In this document: piece after piece, positions 5,820 to 62,100 of the stretch
Layout: each line of letters opens with the position of its first letter
How positions within the stretch are numbered: the stretch's first letter is position 1
Assembly: GCA_946699065.1 (NCBI GenBank)
Contig: CAMPDV010000243.1
Location: forward strand, 369,297-433,296
DNA length: 64,000 nt
DNA from: Loxodes magnus
Taxonomy: Eukaryota > Ciliophora > Karyorelictea > Loxodida > Loxodidae
Direction of reading: 5' to 3'
Program-made: the position numbers and the translations under genes
Notes under the pieces: generated by a model
Databases searched by the model: none
Seen by the model: only the letters and a program-made list of their open reading frames with translations
What the model was told of the DNA's origin: nothing

Positions 5820-6520
5820 AAATACCAACTCTTCTTGCAAAAACCATCAAATAGAAATCATTCCAATCAAATTATCATTACCTAACCATACTCTTAGAAT
5901 TCAAACTTATGCAATAGGATCATTTTAAATAAGAAACATAAGAGTTAGAAGCAAAAATCGCATAACTAATGTCTAACTCATAAATACTAAAATATTAAAA
6001 TTAACAATCAGTCAATCTGAGAATTGAACAAATAGAATCCTAATTCAGTCAATTAGCGGAATTTACTAAAAGCTTATTTCTAAAATATACAAAAACAAAT
6101 GACTTCATAGATATGGAGCCGAATCCTCAACCAGCAAAAATTCCGATAGAAAAAAATAGAAAGTAGTACTGGTATTGCAGGAAATATGGTCACATTTTAA
6201 GATATTGCTGGAAATTCTAAAAAATATTAAAACTTGAAAAATTTAAGTCTTGGGATCCATAAATAGTTTATACTGCACTCCAGAAGGTTTACTATACAGA
6301 AAAAGATGTAAATAGGGAATTAAATCTTGAAGGTCATCATATTTGCTTAATAAAAAAGAATTTGAATGTATTTAGAATCGAACTCGATTGAAGCAAGATA
6401 TCTTTTATTAACAGAGCATTGGAAAATATGTATTCAAAGAAGAAGACTGAAAATGGGTTAATATTTAGCACAATTAAACTTTAAAAAAATGTCGAATTTT
6501 ATTGATAGGTGTAATCACTA
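5820..6520 (+). pseudogene. Family X zinc-knuckle ORF remnant
   Basis: One frame gives a Glu/Gln/Leu-rich, coiled-coil-like stretch (e.g. Q-E-L-E-A-K-I-A-Q-L near 5945). A degenerate CCHC knuckle follows at 6167-6208: Y-W-Y-C-R-K-Y-G-H-I-L-R-Y-C, where the first Cys is Tyr. Spacing C-x4-H-x4-C is exact. A hydrophilic C-terminal part follows to about 6520. A related remnant lies on the minus strand at 27830-28400. The family resembles the ORF1 proteins of LINEs. No end repeats are seen. Confidence 0.45.
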
Positions 6521-10130: not shown

Positions 10131-10720
10131 CTAAGTTTTTTTTATCTATTAAATATTTTGTCTACCTTGCATCAAACAATTTTTTAGTTATACAGACATT
10201 TAAAAAAACATAAATATCCATTTTAACTATATAATTTTTATCGTACTTCGGTTATTAAATTTTAAAGCTTGAATATCAATTAAAAGGAAATCTTTAAAGA
10301 TGCTCAAATTAAAATTTAGTAGATTCTAATTTTTTAAATTTAAGCTTATATTAAAATAAATTTGATAATAGTGTCAGTTAAACTTTTCTATTTAAACCTA
10401 CGTAACTAAAGAATAATTTCTTCTTCCTTTAATATTTGAGTATTATACTTTAATTAAAAAACTAAATGTTTATTATTAAATAAGTTATAATATTTATTAT
10501 AAAGTCTAATCAATTGAAGAAGCTAGTTATATTAGTAGTCAGAAAACCTAACCTAAATTACATATTACCTTAATAAAATTCCTTAATCTTGGAATTAAGT
10601 TTATAATTTAAAGGTTTCATATAAATAGACTGCTTATTTAATTATTAGTTTTATCCTTAAATAATAAATAGATAAAATTAGATTGTTTATAAATACCACT
10701 TATATATTAAAAAATGGTTA
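10131..10720. other. AT-rich stretch, nothing recognised
   Basis: Between SINE A copy 2 and the LINE head. No supported feature. Confidence 0.5.
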
Positions 10721-11035
10721 CCTTCAAGAAGGGCTTTTATACCACTTCCTCAGAGTAGGAGAGAAAACCTGAAGCACTTTCTTTTACCACGTCTTAGCTT
10801 CAATTATTCCAACCTTCTTTATTATGCATAGAAACCAGACTAATAATGCAAGACATCAGACTACACAGGACCAAACTAACTGACCGAACGAACACGAAAT
10901 AATAGAAAAAAAATAGCAATATACCCATGATTGGTCGGACTTTACTAAAAGGAGGAGCACAAAATAAGAAAGGAATACGGCAAAAAAAGTAAACAACCTA
11001 AATAATAATTTAACAAAATAATGAACAATTCATTT

Positions 11036-12509
11036 CAGCCAACGTCCCTGAAAATAAATGTAAAGGGTCTACTAAAATGCCTATGATGATTTATCAGAAA
11101 TGGTGGCCGCAATTTACTTTAACCATTACTTGGAAAACACTTATTTAGTAGAAAAAAAGGCCATAGACTAAGAAGTTATACAAGTGTTTAGAAATCAAAT
11201 ATGGAAGGATTACGGACAAGCAGTGGCGAAGTTCATAGTGAAATAAAACGGAATTGTATACTTGGTATTTAACAATGAAGAAAGATACTAACATTTCACT
11301 TAATTCAGGGAATGAACATTCAAAGGAGTTAGAATTCCTATCTAAGCTAGAAACTAATTGGAATATTTTGACATTCATAACTACCCAATTTACTTCATAA
11401 TTAACGAATACTCAAATATGAAGGAAGTAATGGAAATAATAAGATAATATGGAAAATCAAGAGGAGAGATATAGCATACATATCCAAACACAACAATGCT
11501 AACAGGGAGCAGTGTAGTCTACCTAGATTTAAAGGATGCAGACGAAGCAAAGAGGATACCAGAAATAATAGATTTGAATGGAAACAAAATGAGAATATAA
11601 AACCCAGTAAATTTTATCTGCTGCCTATGTAAAGTGAAAGGGTACACAGACCAGCAATGCAGAAGGATAGAAGCAGCAAAAAGGAAAAAGCTACATACAA
11701 GAGAATTAGAGATGCTTGAAGGAGAAGTTATTTTAACAATAAACAAACCAGATTTTGAAGCAAATCAAGCAAATAAGAGGACAATTGGAGAAGAATAATA
11801 AATGATTATAGAGGAATCAAGAGAAGAAGAGAAGGAAATAAAATGAGGAGAAAAGAAAAATAATTAAAACAACTAAACAATTAAATAATAAAAAGTTTTT
11901 TATGCTAAAAGAATAAATAAAAATTATTTTTCATCAAAATGGAATTGGACATATGTAAGACAGAAGGATAGAGAAATGTTCAAATAATTAAATAAAATAG
12001 AAAACAATCAACTAAATAATAAGATATACCATAAAGCAAATTAGAGAAAAGGATAGGATAGGTGATGATAAAAACGCTAAACCCTAACAAAAGAAATAAG
12101 AAATAAACAAAATAGTATAATGGAGTATATCAGGAAAAACGTAAATAAAGAGAAAAAGCAAAAAGAAATAGAACAAATTCAAGAAGAAAAAGAATAAGAT
12201 GCAAGATAAAAGTGAGAAGAAAGAAGTAAATTGAAGCAAATTTCAATGAGAATGTACTATGCTAAGAAACCGAAAAACAAAAATGAACAATTATCCGACT
12301 TCAACTAATAGGAAAAGGAAAAAGAAGAAGAAGAAGATTAGAATAGATAAGAAGAAGGAAAAGGTAGATAATAAGATGAAAAAGATAAAAAAGGGGAAAG
12401 AACTAATAAAGAAAATAATATGGAAGCATAGAATGATAGATAAGAAGAAGAAAAGGTGGAGAAGGAAGATGAATAAAAAGAAGAATAAGGTGAAGAGGAA
12501 GTAGAGGGA
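11036..12509 (+). pseudogene. LINE copy 1 ORF1 region plus acidic linker
   Basis: From about 11067 one frame reads V-Y-Q-N-A-Y-D-D-L-S, two weakly RRM-like segments (V-A-K-F-I-V-K-Q-N-G-I-V-Y-L and S-S-V-V-Y-L-D-L-K-D-A) and a knuckle at 11619-11660: C-C-L-C-K-V-K-G-Y-T-D-Q-Q-C (Tyr where LINE copy 2 keeps His). The same frame runs on without any forced break through Y-V-R-Q-K-D-R-E-M-F and a Glu/Lys-rich linker into the endonuclease near 12540. ORF1 and ORF2 may therefore be one polyprotein, or a context-read TAA such as that at 11867 may separate them. A one-base loss near 11050-11060, relative to LINE copy 2, disturbs the N terminus. Confidence 0.75.
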
Positions 12510-15500
12510 ATGAGTGTTAAAAAAGATTAAGAATAAGTCATAAAAATAGGGACAGCAAATGTTAGGGGAGTAAGAAGTGCAAAAGAGGTACTAGCCAAAT
12601 TAATGACTCAAAAATGTATCCACATAATGACAATATAAGAGATTTAGATTGAAGACTAAAAAAATATGTGTAATATAGCAGGATATAAAAACTTAATAAA
12701 TGTGGGATCAAAAAAGGAAAAAGAGTAACATTCTATATTAGAAACGACATATGTAAGGAGATCAGAGAGATAAAGAATGAAGTAAACCAAATGACGCTTT
12801 TTGGAGGAGCGAGAGTAATGGCAATAGAAATAATGAAATAATTAGCAGTAATAAATGTTTACGCTCCTGTTGCAAATAACAACGAACATTATGAGCCTTT
12901 CTATAATTTAGTGAATGAATTTAAACTATAAGCAATAGAAAAAGGACTTAATATAATGATAATAGGAGACTGAAATGCGCACATAGAAAAATGACTGCCA
13001 AAGAAAACAAACTCAGCAGGAAAGAGAATGGCACAGTTTATGGAACAGAATAATTTAATATGCCTTGATTCAATTGAAATATTTACTTTTGTTCACTAAA
13101 ATATTTAATATAAAATAGATTACTTTTTAATTGAAGAGATAATGAGAGAAAAGATGATAAAAGTATTTTTATTGCTCATACGTAATAGGAGACCATAGGC
13201 CTGGTATTATATAGGTAAAGATGGGTAAAGAAATAAGAAAGCCATAAAAGATAGCAAAAATAAACTACCTACTATTAAAGAAAAAAGAGATATAAGAAAA
13301 ATTTGAAAGATTTATACGAGAAAATCTCTAAGAAGAAGAAATTGATAACCTAAACGACACATAGACTTATAAATGATGAAAAAAAAGATATAAGAAGGAG
13401 TTTAAATGGTATGTGGAAAATTTAAAACATAAAACTCTAAGATATATAAATATTCAGAAACAACAAAATAGTGTAATAAAATTTACAGAAAATGCAGCAA
13501 ACAATTAAAATAAAGGGTAAAGAACAGAGAACAAATAAATGAAAATCAATAAATTGAGAATCAAAGAGAATACCAAAGAGTAAGATAAGAATACATTTAA
13601 TCAAGAAAAAAAGATAAAAGAAACTAACTAAACCTATTTATGGACAATGTAAATAAAGGAAATCAAACAGATATGTGGAAGAAACTAAAAAGCTTACTTA
13701 ATAGAAAAAATAATTAGTGATTACCCTTTCCAAAAGAAGATGTTAAGACTTTTAGGGACGAATGATAGTAGTTATATGAAGATGGCGATAAAACATTACC
13801 AAATAAATACTTAAACAAGAGACAAATAGTAGTAAACTAAAATGAAATTTGAGAAAACATTAAATAATTGGCGAAATAGGAAGCAACAGGACATGGTGAA
13901 ATATAAGTAGGTACAATATTAGCAGATGGGAAAAAATTAATAGAAGTAACTTGCAAAATGATAGTTAAGATGATTTAAGAAGGAGTATACATTAGGAGAT
14001 GAAATAATAATACATAATATTAATATACAAAAAAGGAGGATAGGTGAATCCAATTAACTATAAACAATCTCTTTATTGAATCATGCTTTAAAAATAGTAG
14101 ACTCATGAATTTTCTAGCGACTATAAGGATATCTGCATAATGATGAAAGCAAACATTAATATGGTTTCAAAAAAGGAAAATCATGCTCACTATAAATCTT
14201 CAACCTAAGAACAGTATAGAAATGATGATGTGGAACAAAAAAGATGTTTTTGTAATATTTGCTGATATTAAGAAAGCTTATGACTCGATGCAAAAAAAAG
14301 ATATATGATAAATCCTAAACGATCTAAAAGTATCGGAATAGATATTTAAATTATTAGCAAACTTTTACTGTGAAGAAGAAATTAAACTTAAAATCAATGA
14401 ATAAATAGTATAGATATTTCGCGACAAATAAAGGTTAAAACAGAGAAAAATAAAGTCACCGAGACTATTTAACCTAATAATGGCAAGAATTCTTCATAAC
14501 TTGAAAGATTAAAAGCTAGGAATTATGATAAACTATAAAAACGAAGAGATATGAACATAAGAAATATATTCAGGATGCTTTGCATATGCAGATGACTTAG
14601 CCTTAATAAGTGAATGAGAATAACTAGAGGAGGTAATCAAAAATTTAACCTCATGGGCAGAAAAATACAAACTGGAAATTGCAGATAAAACAAAATGAAT
14701 GATATGAAAAGCAGGAGAAAATAGTAACTGAGAAAATTTTGGAAATACTATCGAGGTGGGAAATGTAAGGATCGAAAGATTAACGACCTTTTAGTACTCT
14801 GGTCATATAATAGAAGATAACATAATTTTGAAAAACATATAGAGAATAGACTAGAAGCAGCATAAAAGATGTAAACATGAATGCTGGGAAAAATAACAAT
14901 AAATAAGAGATTAACACCATATAATGCAGGATTAATGATAAAAACGTTCGTAAGCTCATTTTTCAGTTATGGAACAGAAGTGATTCCATATTGCGAATAA
15001 TTTGTAGCAAAATAAGTGAGGGAACAATTAGAAATATTATAGAGAAAATCGTAAGGAACAGTCATAGATGCTCCTTTCTAAGTGTAAAATGAGATGCTAG
15101 AATACGAGTTACAGTTTATGAAATTTAAACATTACCTATGGCAGAAAACGCTGAGATTAAGAGGCAGACTAATAGGAACTAAGGAAAAACAGTAGATGGA
15201 TTAATGTTCGACCTAAGTAAAGAAGAGAACTTTATTTTTGAACAATACTGCACGATAATAAAATTGGGATTAAAAATTGAAGGCAAAAATATATTTATAG
15301 ATGATGGTAATAATAATCAAAAAGGGAAGAAAAACATTAATCGTGCAATTTGAGAACATAGAGTATACGTAGAAGATAGAGAAAGAATGGAGTAAATGAT
15401 AACAACTCTACAGTATAGAAAAACATGATTTGATGAATATGTAGTAGGACCACCAAACTACCTGAGATACAATAAAAATAGAAAGGAAGAAATATGCTAC

Positions 15501-15842
15501 ATATTTAGAATAAGAACGAGATATAATGGGAGCCAGGATTGTTTAAAAGAAAGACACCTAGTTGCGACAAGCAAATGACCTTTCTGTAATGACGCAAGAG
15601 AAAACGAAAGGCATATCATAGAAAAATGCTCAGAATACAAAGAAAGTAGATAAATATGTATTAGAAAGTTAAGAACAATAGGAGTAGAAAGACAAGGAAT
15701 GGAACTATTTGATATAATATGAGGTACGTCAAAATTCTAAAAATTCATTAGAACCTAAGAAGAGTAAAAAAGAGCTAAAACTGACTTGATAATAAAAGAT
15801 TATATCAAAAACATATTAGAAAAAAGAAAAAAAGGATAATTA
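12510..15842 (+). pseudogene. LINE copy 1 ORF2: endonuclease, reverse transcriptase, CCHC finger
   Basis: AP endonuclease: G-T-A-N-V-R-G near 12550, I-Q-E near 12633 (Q = TAA), V-Y-A-P at about 12858, G-D-W-N-A-H-I at 12965-12985 (W = TGA) and Y-K-I-D-Y-F-L-I near 13110. Reverse transcriptase: Y-G-F-K-K-G-K-S near 14160, F-A-D-I-K-K-A-Y-D-S at 14258 and F-A-Y-A-D-D-L-A-L-I-S at 14579. C-terminal finger near 15573: W-P-F-C-x8-H-I-I-E-K-C, with the first Cys replaced by TGA. Frame shifts occur at least near 12715, around 14240, and between RT and finger, so the ORF is dead although every catalytic motif is legible. Confidence 0.85.
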
Positions 15843-16137
15843 GAAAAGAAAATTGAATGAAAAAATGAAATAGGAAAATATTATAGAGCAGGAAAAGGAT
15901 AATTTTTATGAGTTTATAAAAGCTTGATTAAAAAGAAAAGAATTAGAAACGAAAATTAGCAAAGTATGTAAAAAAAATAATGAACGCTTGTAACAAAGAA
16001 TCAATAAAACGTAGATAGATAGAAGATAGAAGAACAAGAGATAATGAAGAAGAAAATGATGAAGATATGGAACTAATAAGAGAAAATTTTTTAATACCTG
16101 AAGGCTTACTTGAAGAAATAGACATGTATTGAAACAT

Positions 16138-16182
16138 TTATTAAAGAGCTGCGCACCAACGAGGCGTTACGCGCTCTATAAT
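16138..16182 (+). repeat. Shared LINE/SINE 3' hairpin tail
   Basis: GAGC (16146-16149), bulged T, GCG (16151-16153) pair with CGC (16170-16172) and GCTC (16173-16176), followed by TATAAT. Related tails end SINE A (3124, 10084, reverse at 19672), SINE B (9146), LINE copy 2 (25486), a solitary site at 30896 and, in reverse, 35559. A common 3' end is what a LINE reverse transcriptase would recognise. Confidence 0.8.
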
Positions 16183-16302
16183 CAAATTGATTTATTAATT
16201 ATTTATTTATAAATATATTTCCATTATAATCAAATATTTTGATAAGTTAGATTATATTAGTTTAATTAATACTAAAAGTTAAAACTGAAAATTATAAGTA
16301 TA

Positions 16303-17199
16303 TCACTTTTCCAAGCTTTCCCATTTTGCTTTCTTTATCTCATAAGTAAATAAATGGGCATCACAGTTATATTAATATATATTCTATCTCATAACGATGG
16401 GTTAAGTAAAAACTCAATAAGAAGTTTCAAACTCGGCTCCATGCTTTAAAAAGGATTTAAAATCAAATAACAAAGTATCTATTTTAGGCTTGCTGTTATA
16501 GTAAACAAAAGAGGCATTTTTATTCTGTAAATATGCAGCTGTTGTTCTAGCAGCAGTGGGAAGACAAACATCATTTAAAGTTCATTCGTTAATATCCTTA
16601 TCATAAACTTATATCGTTTAAATAGTATCATTTCCTCCTACTACATATATTTACTTGCTTGTTTAAATAGTTCCAAAGCATCAAGTTATAACTGGAATAT
16701 CAGCTATAATATTGAACTACTTGCTTTTTAAATTAAAAACTTCACATACTTTTGTATTATAGCCTGATAGAACATAAATGTTACTTTTGAGATCAAACGA
16801 GGTTCTATGTGCGAATCTTTATTAATTCATCTTTCACTTTTCCATCTCATCTTCTTTATAAATTATAAATCTTTCTTTTTCTTAACTTATTGCTCCTGAT
16901 ACAACTAATCTTTTATTATCTAGTTATTCTATTTAAGTATCATTTCCTGAAGTTTCCATCATTTATGTTTCTAATTTATTTATTTTTTTTGTTCTTATAT
17001 CATATTCTTTTTTAGTTGCTGAACCTTATATGAATGTCGAAACTAGATAATTTTTCTATAAGTTTGAGCAAACTTCATATTTAACATTTCCTATTCCAAA
17101 CTTAGCAAACAATCTACTGCCTTAAAAGGATTGAGTATCTCTAATAATTTTCCTAAGAAGCATAATTTTAGTAGAAGTGTTGAACTATTCTTCCTACAT
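16303..17199 (-). CDS. Kelch-repeat protein
   Basis: 298 codons on the minus strand. The start is the ATG at 17199: the 12 codons between it and a second ATG at 17163 are conserved (Q-E-E-Q-x-N-T-x-T-K-I-M) in the paralogue at 7581. Blades include R-F-A-H-R-T-S-F-D, I-Y-V-L-S-G-Y, I-Y-V-V-G-G-N-D-T and N-E-W-T-L-N-D (W = TGA). The C terminus has T-A-A-R-T-T-A-A-Y, W-V-F-T-Q-P and K-A-K-W-E. It ends at TGA (16303-16305) where paralogue similarity stops. There is no RING, B-box or other domain, so it is probably a small beta-propeller adaptor; partner unknown. It lies tail to tail with the LINE tail at 16182. Confidence 0.8.
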
Positions 17200-17590
17200 T
17201 TATAAACTAAAATATTTAAAGTTAACAGTAAAGAATATCATATTAAGTTTACAATTATACTTTAATCTTTATTATTTACTTAAATTAGATAACTTAACTT
17301 AAATTAAATTTTACTTAGTTTTTCATTAGTTTAAAATAATAATTAAACTTTTATAATTATCTTAAAATTAAATTATTTATTATTTTTCTACTAAAGATAG
17401 CTTCATTATAATATTTTATTTGTTATTATTTAAGTTTTAATGTTTCTTAATTAATAAAGAATAATATGAAATTAATTATTTAATATTATATTTAATTAGA
17501 ATCTTGTAATTTAAACATTTTATTTACTACAATATTTAATATTATTTTTCCTTCTATTATTCAGTTGCTTAGTTATTATATGTAAAAATT
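17200..17590. other. AT-rich stretch, nothing recognised
   Basis: Upstream flank of the minus-strand kelch gene; no supported feature. Equivalent to 47472-47862 in unit 2. Confidence 0.5.
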
Positions 17591-17960
17591 TTGCTCATTT
17601 TCTGGGATTTTAACCCATTTACTACCTGCCAATTTTCTGCGTGGTAGGGATAACCCTATTTTACACTCTACTCTTCTCTGCTTTTTTAATTGATGATCCA
17701 GAATTCATTTCTTATTGTAGATAATCCCTTAGCAGAAAAGAGTATTTTCCCCTAATATAGGAATATTTTATTTTCTATTTAGTCTTTTCTCTTTTCAATA
17801 AACTTAATAGCTTTTCTATTATTTTATTAAATAAAGGCATTAATTGCTTTAATGCTTATTTAATCTATTTTATATCCTTAAAAGCGTTATCTAATTATTT
17901 TAAGATCCTTTTTCTTTGTAATGCTATATCTAAAAAGATTAGTAGAGATGAAAATGGATA
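17590..17960 (-). pseudogene. Family Z remnant, 3' part
   Basis: On the minus strand a stretch near 17615-17645 aligns with the C-terminal coding end of the Z elements (ATGGGTTAAAATCCCAG with CCTGGTTGAAAATCCAG). Upstream, Y-S-Y-I-R-G-K-Y-S-F-L-L-R-D-Y occupies the place of the CCHC knuckle with its ligands lost. Strongly decayed. Unit 2 copy: 47862-48232. Confidence 0.45.
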
Positions 17961-17989
17961 TATTTATCTTTATAAGAAATAACTTAAAA

Positions 17990-18420
17990 ACTTAAGGAGA
18001 AAAACAGTAAAAGAAATATAGAAAAAATAGTTAAAAGAGTCAAGCTCTTCATCAGAAGGTATAATTATGATCAGGCTTGTTGAGATAAGATAATTTAAGA
18101 ATGAAATTGATAAAAATATTAAAATCTAAAAGACTAAATTTAAAGGTTAATCTAAAAATATTTTACAACAAATTTAGATCAAAGGGAAAAATAAGAGAAA
18201 TCATAAACAAAAAACCAAAATAATGAGTTTTAAATACTACGTCCCCAGCTAATCTAAAATAACTAAGTAATAGATAGTAAATTTATCTGAAATCATATTG
18301 AAATATAGCTAGATCAAATCATGATTGTAGGAAAGGACTAAGTTAAATTAATTTATCATGGCATGAAATAAATTGAAAAGAAAACTTATATAAATTATAT
18401 TATTCCTGCAGATTGAAGTT
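17990..18420 (+). pseudogene. Family Z remnant, N-terminal and coiled-coil part
   Basis: Plus-strand CAAGCTCTTCATCAGAAGG at about 18041 aligns with the Ser-rich segment of the intact Z ORF at about 45923. AGGGAAAAATAAGAGAAATCAT aligns with the G-E-K-I-R-E-L segment, and similarity continues through the coiled coil to about 18330. No knuckle is recognisable. It faces the remnant at 17590-17960 head to head. Unit 2 copy: 48262-48692. Confidence 0.5.
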
Positions 18421-18489
18421 TCTAATTTATGATAAAATACTTTGCTATTTTTATTTGATTATTGTCTAAACTCAACCCTTTTTAGAATA

Positions 18490-19220
18490 CCCAGCAATAT
18501 AATTTCGATAACTTACATATTTGCTCTTTCTTAAGGATTCTATTAAAACAATTTTAAAGTATTTACTGATATATTTAAGGACAATCCTCATGTATTTTTC
18601 TCTATTCTATTAGAACATGATCTTTTATACTAATTCTAATTCGAACTGCTATTTCCCAAAATATTACTCCCTTTGGTAATATGTAGGACCGTTTGCTTAT
18701 TTAGGCTTTGAGTTCATAGTTCAGGAGTTATTCGAAGAATGTCGCTACTTATCTCTTAGATTCTAATGATTATGATTAGATTCTTACTCTTGATAGTAAA
18801 ATCAGTAATTTTAGCTCTTAATCTTTTAACTAACAAAATGTTGTTGCTTTTAAATTTCTGTGAATGATGCTTATCTCTTACATATATTCTAGACCTAAAG
18901 CTGCATCTAAACTTGCTTATAATGCGACTGTCATGGTAACTCTTTCTTATTTTGCAGTAAATCAAATAAATTTTATACTAAATATTTCATTACTAAACAT
19001 AATGGTTAAAGACAATGTTCATTCACTTTTATTATGTTCGGATATCTTATTTTTTAAATCTTCGCCATCTCCTGCTCTAATCATTTTATGCTGCTTTAGA
19101 TATTCTTTAGCTGTATAACTCTTTGATTGGTATCGTGCATACCTTACATTCTCCTCTTGTACACTACTCCAAAGCCTCTCTAAGCTATGTTTTCTATTTT
19201 TAAAATCTTTGATCTTAAAT
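18490..19220 (-). pseudogene. Decayed TKL-type protein kinase domain
   Basis: Minus strand, kinase subdomains in order: A-L-G-L-E-Y near 18895, I-I-H-R-N-L-K near 18860 (catalytic Asp of HRD now Asn), then in a second frame S-N-N-I-L-L...A-K-I-T-D-F-T near 18800 (DFG now DFT), T-P-E-L-W near 18710, and back in the first frame G-V-I-F-W-E-I-A near 18650. A C-P-Q-I-Y-Q-Q-I-L-Q-N-C stretch follows near 18565. Two frame changes and two lost catalytic positions make it a pseudogene. HRxLKSNNILL with DVYSFGVxxWEI-type spacing is typical of TKL kinases. Confidence 0.7.
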
Positions 19221-19671
19221 AACGTAATCTTGATTTCTTATCGAGACTATTTATAGTTATTTCCTTAAAATATAAAATTAAAGATTACAAAGAATTTAAA
19301 TGATAAATAAGAAAAGAAATTAACTTTAACTCACAATTATTTTAGATATTTATTGTAATTTCTTGGTATAAAAATATTAAACTAATTAATTAATTTTAAT
19401 AAAATAAATAGCAATAAATATTTTAAATTTAAAGTAAAGCAAACTAATTTAAATTAAAAACTATTTTATTACTATCCTTTAAAAATGCAACCATTATTAC
19501 ATCATTTAAATCATCTAGCTAGTGTTCTAGTACCAAATTAAATACATTTTATCTATTTTTAAATTTATAAATCTGAAAAAGATTTAAGTAATTATCAAAT
19601 ATAGTATCCCTTATTTTATATTAACAAATTTATATCAAAATTAATTTTTATTTGTAGATTTAAATATATAA
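19221..19671. other. AT-rich stretch, nothing recognised
   Basis: No supported feature on either strand. Equivalent to 49493-49942 in unit 2. Confidence 0.5.
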
Positions 19672-19977
19672 GATTAGAGAACACGTAACACCTCAATGGC
19701 AGGCAGGTATTTAATAAAGACTTTTAAAGTTAAATATTTTTTAAGTATTCTATAGAACTAGCATTCCTTTGTGAGTTTTGTCTTCTTTAGGACCTTTATT
19801 GGAATGCTCCTTTAAGAGATCCTAGTATCTGACTTCTTTCATCATTAACGTTACTTGAAGCCTTTTCAGTCTTATTTTTTCTTGGCTTCTACCAAGATTC
19901 TTGTTCGGTTCTTACCCATGGGTATTTCCTGTTATCAGATCTTAAGTGAATCTCAGTTAGAGGATTGGTCCTCCCTA
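19672..19977 (-). mobile_element. SINE family A, copy 3 (reverse)
   Basis: Read on the minus strand: head GGAGGACCAATCCTC with ACAGGAAATACC, hairpin ATCTTGGTAGAAGCCAAG, GGCTTCAAGTAACG, TAGGATCTCTTAAAGG, and a degenerate tail ending GTGTTACGTGTTCTCTAAT. All parts are collinear with copies 1 and 2. This is the ancestral arrangement; the unit 2 copy is rearranged. Confidence 0.85.
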
Positions 19978-26265: not shown

Positions 26266-26711
26266 AATTATTAAATTTTTTATTTTAGCAAAATATTTAT
26301 AAAAGAATAGAATTGCCAATCTTCCTTTAAGTTTAATAATTACAAGTAAAGCTATAATTATTAAATAAGTTATATTATTAATTATAAAGTAAATTATTTA
26401 AAAATTGTTTATATTAGCAATTCATAAAGCCAAATTTAAATAATATAGTAATTTATTTAATTTCTTTATCTAGATATTAAGGACTCTATTTATATGTTCC
26501 TTATAAATAAACTGCTTACTCTATTTATAACTGTTTTCTTTTATATGAGTAGGTCAAGTTTAGAATGCTTGTAAATAAACACTTTTATTATTTATAAATA
26601 TACAGTCTAATCAATATAATCACATATACTTTAGTAAGTTTTGACAAATTAGATAATAATTAAATAATTTAAGACTAAAAAGTTAATTTTAATTCGAAAA
26701 TATTCCCTTAA
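26266..26711. other. AT-rich stretch, nothing recognised
   Basis: No supported feature. Equivalent to 56538-56983 in unit 2. Confidence 0.5.
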
Positions 26712-27180
26712 CAAGCTTTCCCATTTTGCTTTCTTTATCTCATAAGTAAATAAATAAGCATCACAGTTATATTAATATATATTCTATCTCATAACGATGG
26801 GTTAAGTAAAAACTCAATAAGAAGTTTCAAACTCGGCTCCATGCTTTAAAAAGGATTTAAAATCAAATAACAAAGTATCTATTTTAGGCTTGCTGTTATA
26901 GTAAACAAAAGAGGCATTTTTATTCTGTAAATATGCAGCTGTTGTTCTCGCAGCAGTGGGAAGACAAACATCATTTAAAGTTCATTCGTTAATATCCTTA
27001 TTATAAACTTATATCGTTTAAATAGTATCATTTCCTCCTACTACATATATTTACTTGCTTGTTTAAATAGTTCCAAAGCATCAAGTTATAACTGGAATAT
27101 CAGCTATAATATTGAACTATTTGTTTTATAAATTAAAAACTTCACATACTTTTGTGTTATAGCCTGATAGAACATAAATG
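26712..27180 (-). pseudogene. 3' fragment of the minus-strand kelch gene
   Basis: Nearly identical to the C-terminal half of the gene at 16303-17199, from I-Y-V-L-S-G-Y to K-A-K-W-E-S-L. It stops abruptly at 27180 on the 5' side, where family Y sequence begins, and at 26712 just before the stop codon. High similarity implies a recent copy. No TAA/TAG tail or target repeats identify the mechanism. Unit 2 copy: 56984-57452. Confidence 0.8.
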
Positions 27181-29579: not shown

Positions 29580-30470
29580 ATGTCAGGAATCAAACCAGGA
29601 TTTTTCACGGCTCCAAAATGGCAGAGTTAGCGACATACTAGAAAGGCTAGGACAAAAGAAAAGAATACCAAAAAGATCACCCATCATGATGAGTCTCCCA
29701 CTCTGAAGATAAGCCTAGGAAAATGGCTAAAAATATAAGGCGCTCGAAATTCTCGAATCTCATCAAATAGAGATAAATAAATTATGATTAGCTGATTAAA
29801 GTGGTGCTTGACCTCCAGGAAGAGGTTAAAAATAATGAAGAAAAATAATAAGAAGTTAATGGAAAAACTTGAACTTGCTGAGAAAATAGTATCGAGATTC
29901 ATGAACTAAGTAAGAGACCTTAATGCATTTTGAAACATTTCACAAGACTAAAACAACTAATCTCAAAACTAAAAAAGAAGAGGAAAGAATTTATCAACAA
30001 ATTGAAGAAAAAAAAATCAGTATAAATTGCAGCGTTAAATGGAACTGAAAGCATAAAGGAATTTCCAATGATAATTGAAGGTGAAAATAACTCAAAGATT
30101 TCAACCTAAACGAAAAACAAGAAGTTGCTATTATTGTAACTCTCAAAAGCATCTGTGGAAAAAGTGCTAGAAATTTCTCAATTTCAAGTAAGAATATTGA
30201 AACTAGTAGATGTAGTTGGAAAGCAAAAAGAAGAAATAATAACAACTGAAACTATTTAGAGAAAGGGAAAGATTAAATTTTAACAAATTTGGGAAATTTA
30301 CAAGAAAAAAGACATCTAACATCTAATTAAAAAAAATTAAAGGACAACATGCATGGCAAGGAGAAAAGTTTTTAAGATTTTCAGATTATTATATTAAGCC
30401 TCTAGAGTAATCTAGAGCTGGCGGGAAAGAGGTTGAAATACCTTCAAGAAGGCCAAATGTTTAATTTTGT
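29580..30470 (+). pseudogene. Family Y coiled-coil / CCHC ORF
   Basis: Begins M-S-G-I-K-P-G-F-F-T-A-P-K-W at 29580, a basic region, then the Y signature I-K-V-V-L-D-L-Q-E-E-V and A-F-W-N-I-S-Q. A perfect CCHC knuckle follows at 30126-30167: C-Y-Y-C-N-S-Q-K-H-L-W-K-K-C (C-x2-C-x4-H-x4-C). A Lys/Gln-rich C terminus runs to about 30470. Comparison with the fragment at 27181-27598 shows a one-base length difference near 29840, so the N- and C-terminal parts are in different registers. ORF1-like, as in family Z but with different flanking domains. Unit 2 copy: 59853-60743. Confidence 0.55.
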
Positions 30471-30895
30471 ATTTGTAAGCTGATATAATCTTTATTTTTT
30501 GCAACCCGAATCCAAATATAATAATTTAAGTTAATTAAATTTTATTTAGTGACTGTTTTAATTAATTTAAAAAATGTATAAAAGTAAATGTTACTGTCTC
30601 CATCTATTTGTTTTAATTAAATTTAATAGGTTTATAAATGTTAATTATTTTTATTAGTATTCACCCTATAAATTAATTCTTAAAATAGTAATTTTTTATA
30701 CTTTTATGTATAGGATAAATTGATTAAGACTTTGGTATTTAAATTAATGAAATTTTAATTATAAAAGAAGGAATATGATTATTAAGACATATCTCTAGAC
30801 ATTTTATTTTAAATATTTATGTACATGTTTTATACTTAATTTAATATATTTAAATTATTAAATTTTAATTTAATATTTAACAAATTATCAATTTT
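30471..30895. other. AT-rich stretch before a solitary tail
   Basis: Just upstream, at 30451, CCTTCAAGAAGGCC resembles the first 14 bp of the LINE head, and a LINE tail follows at 30896. This might be a ~490-bp LINE deletion derivative, but the body shows no other LINE sequence. Equivalent to 60744-61168 in unit 2. Confidence 0.35.
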
Positions 30896-30940: not shown

Positions 30941-31026
30941 AAAATTGATTTATTATTTAAATTTTTGAAAACTAATTTAATGGAAATAATTTACTAATAA
31001 TAATAATAATAATATACTTAAAGTTA

Positions 31027-31827
31027 TTAAGGTTTTGCATTTCCTGGAATTTCGACCAGTTCCTGCGGACATTTTTTTAAACGTGGGTGTGTTCCACGAC
31101 CTTTTTTGAAAGTGGGAGGTTACCACTATAGACTTCCAAGTGGTCTTGCAAAAAGCTTTTATTTGTAGATCCCTGTTGGAGTTATTCATAGTTTATTGAG
31201 TTGTCTCCATGTTCTTTTCTGCTCTTATTCGTTTATTCTCTTTCATTATCAGCAGTTTCTTAATAAATGATTATTTTATTTGCAATATCAGCACAGTTTA
31301 TTTTCTCATTTTTATTTCGTTCTTTTAATCGATAGTTTATTTTCTATTTTTTCTAGTCTTTAAATGAAGTTCATATCGATCATTTCTTTTCCTGGATTTT
31401 ATTCTACTTTTGAGTATATTGGTGTCTTTTCTATTTCCATTTTCGTATCATATTTAAAGTTTTATTGTGGCTAAGTTCAGAGTTATTCCTCCGTTATCAA
31501 ATTACTTTGAATGAGCTGTCTTCTGAGTATTAATAATTCGTTATTTTAATCCTCTATGCTATTCATTAATTCCCTTATTTTTTCGCCTAAGTTGTAAGTT
31601 GTTTCTTCATAATTTGAGATTACTTTTTACATTTGGTCTAATTAAATTTAAAGTTTTTGATTAGTTTCGTTTTTAGGTTAACTTATCTCTATTTATCCTA
31701 CCATAACTTTACCTGCTGAAGAAGAGCTTGGCTCCTCCTATTGTTATTATTTTTTCTAAATTTCTTTTGCCGCTTTTCTCTTTAGGTTTCTAAGTTAATT
31801 TTTTGAGAGTCGAAGAGATTAATCCAT
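31027..31827 (-). CDS. Family Z coiled-coil / CCHC zinc-knuckle protein
   Basis: 266 residues, minus strand, ATG at 31827, tandem TAA at the end. M-D-Q-S-L-R-L-S-K-N-Q, S-S-S-S-A-G-K-V, G-E-K-I-R-E-L-M-N-S-I-E-D-Q, knuckle C-W-Y-C-K-Q-N-N-H-L-L-R-N-C, then L-W-I-T-P-T-G-I-Y-K-Q-K align in order with the protein at 45825. The frame is conserved up to the C-terminal ~20 residues, where the two copies differ by one base. Conservation of frame between diverged copies implies selection for protein. A TAA microsatellite lies just beyond the 3' end (about 31001-31017). Confidence 0.7.
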
Positions 31828-45232: not shown

Positions 45233-45299
45233 AAAATTTATCTATTCCTTTATTATTTATGATCTTTTTATCATAAAAAATGCATTTATGTTTAAATAG

Positions 45300-45606
45300 G
45301 AAAAAATTATAGAGCGGAAAAAGATAATTTTTATGAGTTTATAAAAGCTTGATTAAGAAGAAAAGAATTAGAAACGAAAATTAGCAAAGTATGTAAAAAA
45401 AATAATGAAAGCTTGTAACAAAGAATCAATAAAACGTAGATAGATAGAAGATAGAAGAACAAGAGATAATGAAGAAGAAAATGATGAAGATATGGAACTA
45501 ATAAGAGAAAATTTTTAATACCTGAAGGCTTACTTGAAGAAATAGACATGTATTGAAACATTTATTAAAGAGCTGCGCACCAACGAGGTGTTACGCGCTC
45601 TATAAT
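45300..45606 (+). mobile_element. LINE copy 1, 3' remnant after deletion (unit 2)
   Basis: Matches 15874-16182: end of ORF2 and the hairpin tail at 45562-45606. Everything upstream of this in the LINE is gone. The left junction is AAATAG at 45294-45299, which in unit 1 occurs at both 9249-9254 and 15868-15873. Confidence 0.9.
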
Positions 45607-45798
45607 CAAATTGATTTATTAATTATTTATTTATAAATATATTTCCATTATAATCAAATATTTTGATAAGTTAGATTATATTAGTTTAATTAATACTAAA
45701 AGTTAAAACTGAAAATTATAAGTATATCACTTTTCCAAGCTTTCCCATTTTGCTTTCTTTATCTCATAAGTAAATAAATAAGCATCACAGTTATATTA

Positions 45799-46659
45799 AT
45801 ATATATTCTATATATAAAAAAAAAATGGAATAATCTATTCGCCTTTCCAAAAACCAAATTAAGAACGCAAAAAGGAAAGCTGCGAAACTAATCCAGAAAC
45901 AATAACAAGAAGAAGATAAATCAAGTTCCTCATCTGAAGGAAAAGTTATAATTGGAACAATAGAGACGAATCCAGTAAAAGTACAAAAATAATCAGAAAT
46001 CTAAATATAAATTGACTAAATGAAAACAATAATACAAAATTATTAGGAAACAATTTACAATCAAGGGGAAAAAATAAGAGAACTAATGAATACTATCGAA
46101 GATTAAAACAACGAGCTACTAATAATAAGACGACAATTGATTTAAAATAATTTAGTCACGGAATAGTAACTATATGAATAATCTCAATCGAATTTTAAGC
46201 AAGAACAAAATATGATTATTGAAAAAGTTTCTACATAAACAAACATCCAAGAAAAATAGAATGACGAAAAGATTAATATAGAATTACTCCAAAGAATCGA
46301 TTAACTTGAAAAAAAAGTATTTCTGAAGAGATTCAAGAAAAGACCAATCAAAAATTGCTATTATTGCAAATCAAAGTGACACCTATTACAAAATTGCGAT
46401 CAGTGGAGATAAATTTAGATGAAAGAACAACAAAGAACGTTAAGAATGCTTAGCAGACTCTGAATCACCGAAACGGGAATTTACAAGAAGAAGATATTCT
46501 TATAAAAGACAGAAGATTCTCAGTGGTTCCATCCACAAAAAAAAATGGCGTGGTATCCATCCACGCTAAAAAAATGGTAGCAAAAACCTGGTTGAAAATC
46601 CAGGGAATGCTAAACTTTAATTACTTTTAGTTTACTATATATATATATATATATTCTAT
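45799..46659 (+). mobile_element. Family Z element insertion with 13-bp target duplication
   Basis: The sequence ATATATATTCTAT occurs once in unit 1 (about 16375-16387) but twice here, at 45799-45811 and 46647-46659. Between them are 835 bp absent from unit 1: a short A-run, one ORF (45825 onward) and a TA-rich 3' end. A second, older Z copy at 31027-31827 (-) ends in a TAA microsatellite. A target duplication plus a simple-repeat 3' end and no terminal inverted repeats point to LINE-type retrotransposition in trans, as in ORF1-only HAL1-like elements. Confidence 0.85.
45825..46595 (+). CDS. Family Z coiled-coil / CCHC zinc-knuckle protein (intact)
   Basis: About 256 residues. The basic N terminus M-E-Q-S-I-R-L-S-K-N-Q is followed by a Ser-rich patch (S-S-S-S-S-E-G-K-V) and a long coiled coil with G-E-K-I-R-E-L-M-N-T-I-E-D-Q. 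The CCHC knuckle C-Y-Y-C-K-S-K-W-H-L-L-Q-N-C lies at 46342-46383, and a Trp-rich C-terminal region follows (L-W-I-T-E-T-G-I-Y-K-K-K). About half the residues are shared with the protein at 31027-31827 over the whole length, including a Trp written TGG here and TGA there. The end is set at the first TGA past the conserved part; TAA at 46611 is an alternative. Probably a nucleic-acid-binding ORF1-type protein. Confidence 0.75.
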
Positions 46660-48761
46660 CTCATAACGATGGGTTAAGTAAAAACTCAATAAGAAGTTTC
46701 AAACTCGGCTCCATGCTTTAAAAAGGATTTAAAATCAAATAACAAAGTATCTATTTTAGGCTTGCTGTTATAGTAAATAAAAGAGGCATTTTTATTCTAT
46801 AAATATGCAGCTGTTGTTCTCGCAGCAGTGGGAAGACAAACATCATTTAAAGTTCATTCGTTAATATCCTTATTATAAACTTATATCGTTTAAATAGTAT
46901 CATTTCCTCCTACTACATATATTTACTTGCTTGTTTAAATAGTTCCAAAACATCAAGTTATAACTGGAATATCAGCTATGATATCGAACTATTTGTTTTT
47001 TAAACTAAACATTTCACATACTTTTGTATTATATCCTGATAGAACATAAATATTACTTTTGAGATCAAACGAGGTTCTATGTGCGAATCTTAATTAATTC
47101 ATCTTTCACTTTTCTATCTCATCTTCTTTATAAATTATAAATCTTTCTTTTTCTTAACTTAATGCTCCTGATATAACTAATCTTTTATTATCTAGTTATT
47201 CTATTTAAGTATCATTTCCTGAAGTTTTCATCATTTATGTTTCTAATTTATTTATTTTTTTTGTTCTTATATCATAGTCTTTTTTAGTTGCTGATCCTCA
47301 TAAGAACGTTGAAACTAGATAATTTTTCTATAAGTTTGAGCAAACTTCATATTTAACATTTCCTATTCCAAACTTAGCAAACAATCTACTGCCTTAAAAG
47401 GATTGAGTATCTCTAATAATTTTCCTAAGAAGCATAATTTTAGTAGAAGTGTTGAACTATTCTTCCTACATTTATAAACTAAAATATTTAAAGTTAACAG
47501 TAAAGAATATCATATTAAGTTTACAATTATACTTTAATCTTTATTATTTACTTAAATTAGATAACTTAACTTAAATTAAATTTTACTTAGTTTTTCATTA
47601 GTTTAAAATAATAATTAAACTTTTATAATTATCTTAAAATTAAATTATTTATTATTTTTCTACTAAAGATAGCTTCATTATAATATTTTATTTGTTATTA
47701 TTTAAGTTTTAATGTTTCTTAATTAATAAAGAATAATATGAAATTAATTATTTAATATTATATTTAATTAGAATCTTGTAATTTAAACATTTTATTTACT
47801 ACAATATTTAATATTATTTTTCCTTCTATTATTCAGTTGCTTAGTTATTATATGTAAACATTTTGCTCATTTTCTGGGATTTTAACCCATTTACTACCTG
47901 CCAATTTTCTGCGTGGTAGGGATAACCCTATTTTACACTCTACTCTTCTCTGCTTTTTTAATTGATGATCCAGAATTAATTTCTTATTGTAGATAATCCC
48001 TTAGCAGAAAAGAGTATTTTCCCCTAATATAGGAATATTTTATTTTCTATTTAGTCTTTTCTCTTTTCAATAAACTTAATAGCTTTTCTATTATTTTATT
48101 AAATAAAGGCATTAATTGCTTTAATGCTTATTTAATCTATTTTATATCCTTAAAAGCGTTATCTAATTATTTTAAGATCCTTTTTCTTTGTAATGCTATA
48201 TCTAAAAAGATTAGTAGAGATGAAAATGGATATATTTATCTTTATAAGAAATAACTTAAAAACTTAAGGAGAAAAACAGTAAAAGAAATATAGAAAAAAT
48301 AGTTAAAAGAGTCAAGCTCTTCATCAGAAGGTATAATTATGATCAGGCTTGTTGAGATAAGATAATTTAAGAATGAAATTGATAAAAATATTAAAATCTA
48401 AAAGACTAAATTTAAAGGTTAATCTAAAAATATTTTACAACAAATTTAGATCAAAGGGAAAAATAAGAGAAATCATAAACAAAAAACCAAAATAATGAGT
48501 TTTAAATACTACGTCCCCAGCTAATCTAAAATAACTAAGTAATAGATAGTAAATTTATCTGAAATCATATTGAAATATAGCTAGATCAAATCATGATTGT
48601 AGGAAAGGACTAAGTTAAATTAATTTATCATGGCATGAAATAAATTGAAAAGAAAACTTATATAAATTATATTATTCCTGCAGATTGAAGTTTCTAATTT
48701 ATGATAAAATACTTTGCTATTTTTATTTGATTATTGTCTAAACTCAACCCTTTTTAGAATA

Positions 48762-49492
48762 CCCAGCAATATAATTTCGATAACTTACATATTTGCTCTT
48801 TCTTAAGGATTCTATTAAAACAATTTTAAAGTATTTACTGATATATTTAAGGACAATCCTCATGTATTTTTCTCTATTCTATTAGAACATGATCTTTTAT
48901 ACTAATTCTAATTCGAACTGCTATTTCCCAAAATATTACTCCCTTTGGTAATATGTAGGACCGTTTGCTTATTTAGGCTTTGAGTTCATAGTTCAGGAGT
49001 TATTCGAAGAATGTCGCTATTTATCTCTTAGATTCTAATGATTATGATTAGATTCTTACTCTTGATAGTAAAATCAGTAATTTTAGCTCTTAATCTTTTA
49101 ACTAACAAAATGTTGTTGCTTTTAAATTTCTGTGAATGATGCTTATCTCTTACATATATTCTAGACCTAAAACTGTATCTAAACTTACTTATAATGCGAC
49201 TGTCATGGTAACTCTTTCTTATTTTGCAGTAAATCAAATAAATTTTATACTAAATATTTCATTACTAAACATAATGGTTAAAGACAATGCTCATTCACTT
49301 TTATTATGTTCGGATATCTTATTTTTTAAATCTTCGCCATCTCCTGCTTTAATCATTTTATGCTGCTTTAGATATTCTTTAGCTGTATAACTCTTTGATT
49401 GGTATCGTGCATACCTTACATTCTCCCCTTGTACACTACTCCAAAACCTCTCTAAGCTATGTTTTCTATTTTTAAAATCTTTGATCTTAAAT
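48762..49492 (-). pseudogene. Decayed TKL-type kinase, unit 2 copy
   Basis: Duplicate of 18490-19220 with the same HRN and DFT changes and the same frame breaks, so the decay predates the duplication. A few substitutions fall around 49165-49185. Confidence 0.7.
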
Positions 49493-49942
49493 AACGTAAT
49501 CTTGATTTCTTATCGAGACTATTTATAGTTATTTCCTTAAAATATAAAATTAAAGATTACAAAGAATTTAAATGATAAATAAGAAAAGAAATTAACTTTA
49601 ACTCACAATTATTTTAGATATTTATTGTAATTTCTTGGTATAAAAATATTAAACTAATTAATTAATTTTAATAAAATAAATAGCAATAAATATTTTAAAT
49701 TTAAAGTAAAGCAAACTAATTTAAATTAAAAACTATTTTATTACTATCCTTTAAAAATGCAACCATTATTACATCATTTAAATCATCTAGCTAGTGTTCT
49801 AGTACCAAATTAAATACATTTTATCTATTTTTAAATTTATAAATCTGAAAAAGATTTAAGTAATTATCAAATATAGTATCCCTTATTTTATATTAACAAA
49901 TTTATATCAAAATTAATTTTTATTTGTAGTTTAAATATATAA

Positions 49943-50250
49943 GATTAGAGAACACGTAACACCTCAATGGCAGGCAACTCTTTAATAAGAACCGAACAAG
50001 AATCTTGGTAGAAGCCAAGAAAAAATAAGACTGAAAAGGCTTCAAGTAACGTTAATGATGAAAGATGTCAGATACTAGGATCTCTTAAAGGAGTATTCCG
50101 ATAAAGGTCCTAAAGAAGACAAGACTCACAAAGGAATGCTAGTTCAATAGAATATTTAAAAAAAATTTAACTTTAAAAGTCTTTAGCCCATGGGTATTTC
50201 CTGTTATCAGATCTTAAGTGAATCTCAGTTAGAGGATTGGTCCTCCCTAT
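49943..50250 (-). mobile_element. SINE family A, copy 3 with inverted core (unit 2)
   Basis: The outer parts match 19672-19977 in the same orientation: tail at 49943-49985, head at 50187-50250. The core at 49986-50186, however, runs in the plus direction, i.e. inverted relative to unit 1. Breakpoints fall at TTTAATAA/GAACC on the left and GTCTTT/AGCCC on the right. The core differs from its unit 1 counterpart at several positions in ~200 bp. The adjoining tail reads AACTCTTTAATAA, closer to the consensus than unit 1. Confidence 0.85.
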
Positions 50251-59500: not shown

Positions 59501-61299
59501 TTTAATCTTAATAGAAATTTTACCATTTTCTGGATTAATTTATCTTTTTATTTTTTTTTGAATTTATATTGGTATAAATTCAAATTTTTCTAAATTTTTT
59601 TATAATAAAAATGAGTAAATTTTATAACTAATAGAGAGAATCTTTTAAAAATAAATGTATAAGATAGCTTAATCAGATTTAAGAAATTATTATTTATTTA
59701 ATTTTTATACTTCTTAATTTTTTATTTATAGAGAAAATTAGTTCTAGTTCCTTTATAATTTATTTATTATCATTTTATCGTAAATTATACATTTTTTTTA
59801 TTTTTATAATTTAATTTCAAATAACATTCATATAATAATACTTTAAGAAAAGATGTCAGGAATCAAACCAGGATTTTTCACGGCTCCAAAATGGCAGAGT
59901 TAGCGACATACTAGAAAGGCTAGGACAAAAGAAAAGAATACCAAAAAGATCACCCATCATGATGAGTCTCCCACTCTGAAGATAAGCCTAGGAAAATGGC
60001 TAAAAATATAAGGCGCTCGAAATTCTCGAATCTCATCAAATAGAGATAAATAAATTATGATTAGCTGATTAAAGTGGTGCTTGACCTCCAGGAAGAGGTT
60101 AAAAATAATGAAGAAAAATAATAAGAAGTTAATGGAAAAACTTGAACTTGCTGAGAAAATAGTATCGAGATTCATGAACTAAGTAAGAGACCTTAATGCA
60201 TTTTGAAACATTTCACAAGACTAAAACAACTAATCTCAAAACTAAAAAAGAAGAGGAAAGAATTTATCAACAAATTGAAGAAAAAAAAATCAGTATAAAT
60301 TGCAGCGTTAAATGGAACTGAAAGCATAAAGGAATTTCCAATGATAATTGAAGGTGAAAATAACTCAAAGATTTCAACCTAAACGAAAAACAAGAAGTTG
60401 CTATTATTGTAACTCTCAAAAGCATCTGTGGAAAAAGTGCTAGAAATTTCTCAATTTCAAGTAAGAATATTGAAACTAGTAGATGTAGTTGGAAAGCAAA
60501 AAGAAGAAATAATAACAACTGAAACTATTTAGAGAAAGGGAAAGATTAAATTTTAACAAATTTGGGAAATTTACAAGAAAAAAGACATCTAACATCTAAT
60601 TAAAAAAAATTAAAGGACAACATGCATGGCAAGGAGAAAAGTTTTTAAGATTTTCAGATTATTATATTAAGCCTCTAGAGTAATCTAGAGCTGGCGGGAA
60701 AGAGGTTGAAATACCTTCAAGAAGGCCAAATGTTTAATTTTGTATTTGTAAGCTGATATAATCTTTATTTTTTGCAACCCGAATCCAAATATAATAATTT
60801 AAGTTAATTAAATTTTATTTAGTGACTGTTTTAATTAATTTAAAAAATGTATAAAAGTAAATGTTACTGTCTCCATCTATTTGTTTTAATTAAATTTAAT
60901 AGGTTTATAAATGTTAATTATTTTTATTAGTATTCACCCTATAAATTAATTCTTAGAATAGTAATTTTTTATACTTTTATGTATAGGATAAATTGATTAA
61001 GACTTTGGTATTTAAATTAATGAAATTTTAATTATAAAAGAAGGAATATGATTATTAAGACATATCTCTAGACATTTTATTTTAAATATTTATGTACATG
61101 TTTTATACTTAATTTAATATATTTAAATTATTAAATTTTAATTTAATATTTAACAAATTATCAATTTTATTAAAAAGAGATGCGCAAAAACGTGATACTA
61201 GGCGCTCTATAATAAAATTGATTTATTATTTAAATTTTTGAAAACTAATTTAATGGAAATAATTTACTAATAATAATAATAATAATATACTTAAAGTTA

Positions 61300-62100
61300 T
61301 TAAGGTTTTGCATTTCCTGGAATTTCGACCAGTTCCTGCGGACATTTTTTTAAACGTGGGTGTGTTCCACGACCTTTTTTGAAAGTGGGAGGTTACCACT
61401 ATAGACTTCCAAGTGGTCTTGCAAAAAGCTTTTATTTGTAGATCCCTGTTGGAGTTATTCATAGTTTATTGAGTTGTCTCCATGTTCTTTTCTGCTCTTA
61501 TTCGTTTATTCTCTTTCATTATCAGCAGTTTCTTAATAAATGATTATTTTATTTGCAATATCAGCACAGTTTATTTTCTCATTTTTATTTCGTTCTTTTA
61601 ATCGATAGTTTATTTTCTATTTTTTCTAGTCTTTAAATGAAGTTCATATCGATCATTTCTTTTCCTGGATTTTATTCTACTTTTGAGTATATTGGTGTCT
61701 TTTCTATTTCCATTTTCGTATCATATTTAAAGTTTTATTGTGGCTAAGTTCAGAGTTATTCCTCCGTTATCAAATTACTTTGAATGAGCTGTCTTCTGAG
61801 TATTAATAATTCGTTATTTTAATCCTCTATGCTATTCATTAATTCCCTTATTTTTTCGCCTAAGTTGTAAGTTGTTTCTTCATAATTTGAGATTACTTTT
61901 TACATTTGGTCTAATTAAATTTAAAGTTTTTGATTAGTTTCGTTTTTAGGTTAACTTATCTCTATTTATCCTACCATAACTTTACCTGCTGAAGAAGAGC
62001 TTGGCTCCTCCTATTGTTATTATTTTTTCTAAATTTCTTTTGCCGCTTTTCTCTTTAGGTTTCTAAGTTAATTTTTTGAGAGTCGAAGAGATTAATCCAT
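61300..62100 (-). CDS. Family Z protein, unit 2 copy
   Basis: Duplicate of 31027-31827 with no difference seen by eye in the knuckle or signature segments; the open frame is the same. Confidence 0.7.

Follow-up and report, generated by a model that had tools for sequence, protein, structure and literature searches.

A small element in the ciliate Loxodes magnus that seems to be mobile and to encode one RNA-binding-type protein without a copying enzyme

We analyzed a 64,000-nucleotide stretch of the Loxodes magnus genome (contig CAMPDV010000243.1, positions 369,297 to 433,296; hereafter the window) in which one of three paralogous units, unit 2, carries an insert that we call Z. The insert is exactly 835 bp long and lies between two copies of the target-site duplication (TSD) ATATATATTCTAT (Table 1). 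This site is empty in unit 1, where the alignment pairs 15868-16387 with 45294-45811 and 16368-19717 with 46640-49988, and in the third unit, where it pairs 26639-26787 with 45661-45811 and 26768-27179 with 46640-47051. Beside the Z site, units 1 and 2 are 98.3-98.8% identical. A preliminary description made from the sequence alone had placed an 835-bp insert with a 13-bp TSD in unit 2 only, and its coordinates proved exact, although the (TA)n tail merges into the TA-rich TSD and leaves the exact boundary of the insert ambiguous. The description also held that Z had landed in a kelch gene. On the minus strand of unit 1, a kelch-like open reading frame (ORF) extends across the empty site and has an in-frame TGA 23 codons beyond it, and in unit 2 the end of this ORF is replaced by Z. 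The kelch assignment itself fell short, as the Kelch_6 match in unit 2 (minus strand, ~46962-47051, in one of six frames scanned; E 7.9e-5) scored 23.0 bits, below the cut-off of 25.3.

Table 1. Positions, in window coordinates, of Z, its insertion site and its relatives
Feature	Position	Strand	Remarks
Z element, full length, 835 bp	45812..46646	+	ends identical in 30 distinct top-scoring copies
5' junction	45812..45824	+	ATAT filler and A-run, then ATG at once; no other 5' untranslated region (UTR)
Z ORF, codons 1-228 (code 27)	45825..46508	+	portion with coding substitution pattern
Zinc knuckle CX2CX4HX4C	46356..46397	+	tryptophan codon in knuckle is TGA
TGA read as W of L-W-I-T	46461..46463	+	judged sense
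TGA, likeliest stop of Z	46593..46595	+	40 nt upstream of tail
(TA)n tail	46636..46646	+	
Left TSD ATATATATTCTAT	45799..45811	.	single copy at empty sites of unit 1 and unit 3
Right TSD ATATATATTCTAT	46647..46659	.	
Empty site, unit 1	16368..16387	.	alignment to unit 2 and letters
Empty site, third paralogous unit	26768..26787	.	alignment to unit 2 and letters
Zb, diverged relative with (TAT)n tail	31004..31827	-	duplicate at ~61277-62100
Decayed Z-like relic	17962..18350	+	duplicate from 48234

The Z protein is ~228-257 amino acids long and consists, in order, of a basic N-terminus, a heptad-like or coiled-coil stretch (judged by eye), the zinc knuckle and the motif LWITxTGIYK. In the relative Zb, the knuckle matched Pfam zf-CCHC at no better than E 0.16. 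The A-run before the ATG measures 5-37 nt across 30 copies of Z; long runs of ~27-37 nt occur in three copies (L007, L057 and L060), and the others have 5-14. As described earlier, Z has no terminal inverted repeats, and the six imperfect pairs that were found are all internal. Z has a 3' simple-repeat tail and neither long terminal repeats (LTRs) nor inverted termini, as expected of a non-LTR retroelement mobilised by target-primed reverse transcription (TPRT).

In code 27, TAA and TAG encode glutamine and TGA encodes tryptophan, so that all three stop codons can be sense and every frame is open. The earlier claim that the insert is essentially one ORF therefore gains nothing from the open frame and rests on the substitution pattern, which supports a selected reading frame in the coding part. 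Codons downstream of the TGA in L-W-I-T vary mostly at third positions, and for this reason that TGA was judged sense. The diverged copy had been reported at 31027-31827 with its frame intact; we found it at ~31016-31827 on the minus strand, with 67% nucleotide identity to Z and 52% amino acid identity over 251 aligned positions. Z and Zb are two recently amplified families that each keep the frame while synonymous divergence (dS) between them is saturated. This comparison supports the proposal that the protein is maintained by purifying selection.

A search of 705,730,643 bases in 7843 contigs suggests that Z has inserted at hundreds of sites across the genome with hardly any change. The first copies fetched were 99.6-100% identical to the unit-2 copy over 808 bp (38 rows, some of which are the same place twice). 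When target duplications were tabulated, as the preliminary description had proposed, they proved variable in length: in a first search, the two flanks had 12-19 bp in common in 28 of 30 distinct copies. A filtered search, which required a fragment to contain at least three kinds of base, found at least 12 bp in 25/30 copies, compared with 0.19% of shuffled flank pairs. The filtered search chose a different fragment at L005 and found one at L007 that the first had missed; L062 was the sole locus of the 30 for which neither search found a shared fragment. Two further distinct copies (L055 and L065), which lack the exact search string, are outside these counts. The shared flanks are not due to chance. 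The starts of the TSDs overlap the (TA)n tails, which partly accounts for the target's seeming to begin with TA. The flanks of the 30 copies are dispersed, with one resemblance among upstream flanks and none among downstream flanks.

Long interspersed nuclear elements (LINEs) resident in this genome are 5-6 kb long, with similarity to endonuclease and reverse transcriptase (RT) and a CCHC motif upstream of the polymerase. They include a frame-broken copy in the window (~10700-16210) and those at L069-L072. In the window copy, polymerase similarity (12500-16015) is split over several frames and gives no RVT_1 match, which indicates that this copy is itself decayed. Neither the ORF1 nor the 3' end of any LINE sampled, which represent a minority of the genome's RT families, matched Z. 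LINE tails are of (TTTA)n type in L069, L070 and L076, and no Z-like 3' end was present at L069-L072 or L076; in L077 and L078 the LINE end could not be placed. Three cases had raised the suspicion that Z clusters beside LINE 3' ends, but a LINE 3' motif lay within the 1.5-kb flanks of 8/30 Z loci, where neither its distance from Z nor its orientation was constant (a ninth, L049, had a 16-base match only). A Z profile match near an RT in L010 (knuckle region only, E 5.8e-4) was rejected as the ORF1 of that LINE because it lies on the opposite strand, beyond the RT end. Matches of model R1 in the window and flanks were weak (E 0.4 and up) and were treated as chance.

Downstream of its coding part, Z has three small hairpins, of which the second and third recur in a consensus fold of five sequences with 19 pairs. 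Only 2/19 pairs show two-sided changes, and the modeled structure, though plausible, falls short of proof. A covariance model of the 3' end matches the young copies, Zb and two old flank relics (L066, 2383-2506, 52.8 bits; L053, 3095-3219, 44.7 bits). In both relics a decayed Z-type ORF lies immediately upstream, which argues that the ORF and the 3' end have travelled together over a long time.

Taken as a whole, Z seems to be a small mobile element that lacks a copying enzyme and encodes a single protein, of RNA-binding type. From its anatomy we infer that it moves through RNA by reverse transcription, and it must then need the copying machinery of another element; the analysis supports the original proposal of a self-contained ORF1-only retroelement using another element's RT. 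Z could instead be like a short interspersed nuclear element (SINE) whose ORF has no role in cis, given that it is short, has a high copy number and ends in hairpins and a simple tail. This is improbable, since both amplified families keep the frame at saturated dS, no transfer RNA (tRNA) gene was found in Z, and Rfam gave one match below the gathering score (20.4 bits versus 56). Somewhat less probable still is that the ORF serves a LINE of RT-only type. Such a partner would account for the strong selection on the ORF and for the absence of a common 3' end with ORF1-bearing LINEs, but none was seen among the LINEs sampled, and the best-sampled LINE has its own upstream CCHC-bearing frame. That Z is merely part of a longer LINE is very unlikely and already largely refuted: the abundance of LINEs and the CCHC knuckle in their first ORF speak for it, but the Z unit terminates before any RT and none of the 30 loci has a LINE polymerase within 1.5 kb downstream, where the preliminary description would have been undone by finding one routinely.

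Database searches gave nothing above cut-off in Pfam for the Z protein and its relatives, a best E of 0.046 to unrelated proteins in a PDB sequence search, and, when the protein alignment was run against IMG/VR, 600 pattern matches among which no relative was confirmed. SINEs are short, high-copy elements with a structured 3' end and a simple-repeat tail that depend on LINE enzymes. Z differs from them in encoding a selected protein and in having no tRNA or Rfam match, and no LINE was found to have a 3' end in common with it. The resident LINEs are like Z in being non-LTR elements with simple-repeat tails and CCHC motifs, but differ in length, endonuclease and RT, ORF1, 3' hairpin and tail. 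HAL1 (half-L1) of mammals is a non-autonomous non-LTR element coding for ORF1p alone (PMC5753468). Like HAL1, Z has only an ORF1 product and no RT; however, HAL1 derives from L1, whereas no sampled LINE has the ORF1 or the 3' end of Z, which also differs in its (TA)n or (TAT)n tail, its length of 0.83 kb and its practical lack of a 5' UTR. HeT-A of Drosophila is a Gag-bearing non-LTR element without RT that is served in trans (PMC5537684). HeT-A makes up telomeres in head-to-tail arrays, whereas the Z copies that were read are dispersed with target duplications.

This kind of element is already known from HAL1 and HeT-A. As a rule, newly arisen non-autonomous elements soon decay or cease to encode protein. 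What appears new in the Z sequences is a compact ciliate element with almost no 5' UTR and no LINE source of its ORF1 among those sampled, long-lived under selection. The preliminary description knew of no such ciliate family, and our literature search, with supplements and bioRxiv outside it, found no earlier account. The macronuclear assembly of L. magnus (706 Mbp, translation table 27) contains ~2,700 RVT_1 domains and more than 30,000 LINE-class repeats; most repeats, 757 k copies, are unclassified (PMC11441545); the words nonautonomous, non-autonomous, ORF1 and SINE are absent from the main text of that paper. Z would give a name to part of this very large unclassified fraction and may explain some mobile-element polymorphism of Loxodes. 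Its RNA would compete for another element's RT, and a polymerase-less element with a selected protein would be a 0.8-kb natural model in which to study how ORF1 or Gag proteins serve such a competing RNA.

The window holds further candidates. Family Y is a second 0.9-kb CCHC ORF unit (29580-30477, plus strand; duplicate ~59853-60750) whose end lies near the hairpin CCTTCAAGAAGG; the Z profile matched it at chance level only. Its 40 scored matches (of 3509 candidates) comprise 9 close duplicates and 31 at 82-85% identity, of which 21 run from query position 1 or 2 as far as 898 and the others likewise end at 894-899. Family Y looks like another ORF-only element. The element at 930-1750, with a CCHC-like frame near 1599 and a leader-encoded peptide (AFxPLPQ.RRE..KHFLLP) common to the LINE 5' end (10700-10800), is possibly a LINE-derived ORF1-only element. 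A decayed coiled-coil/CCHC frame, WYCRKYGHILRYC, at 5900-6480 on the plus strand ends near a TTA repeat and perhaps represents a further family.
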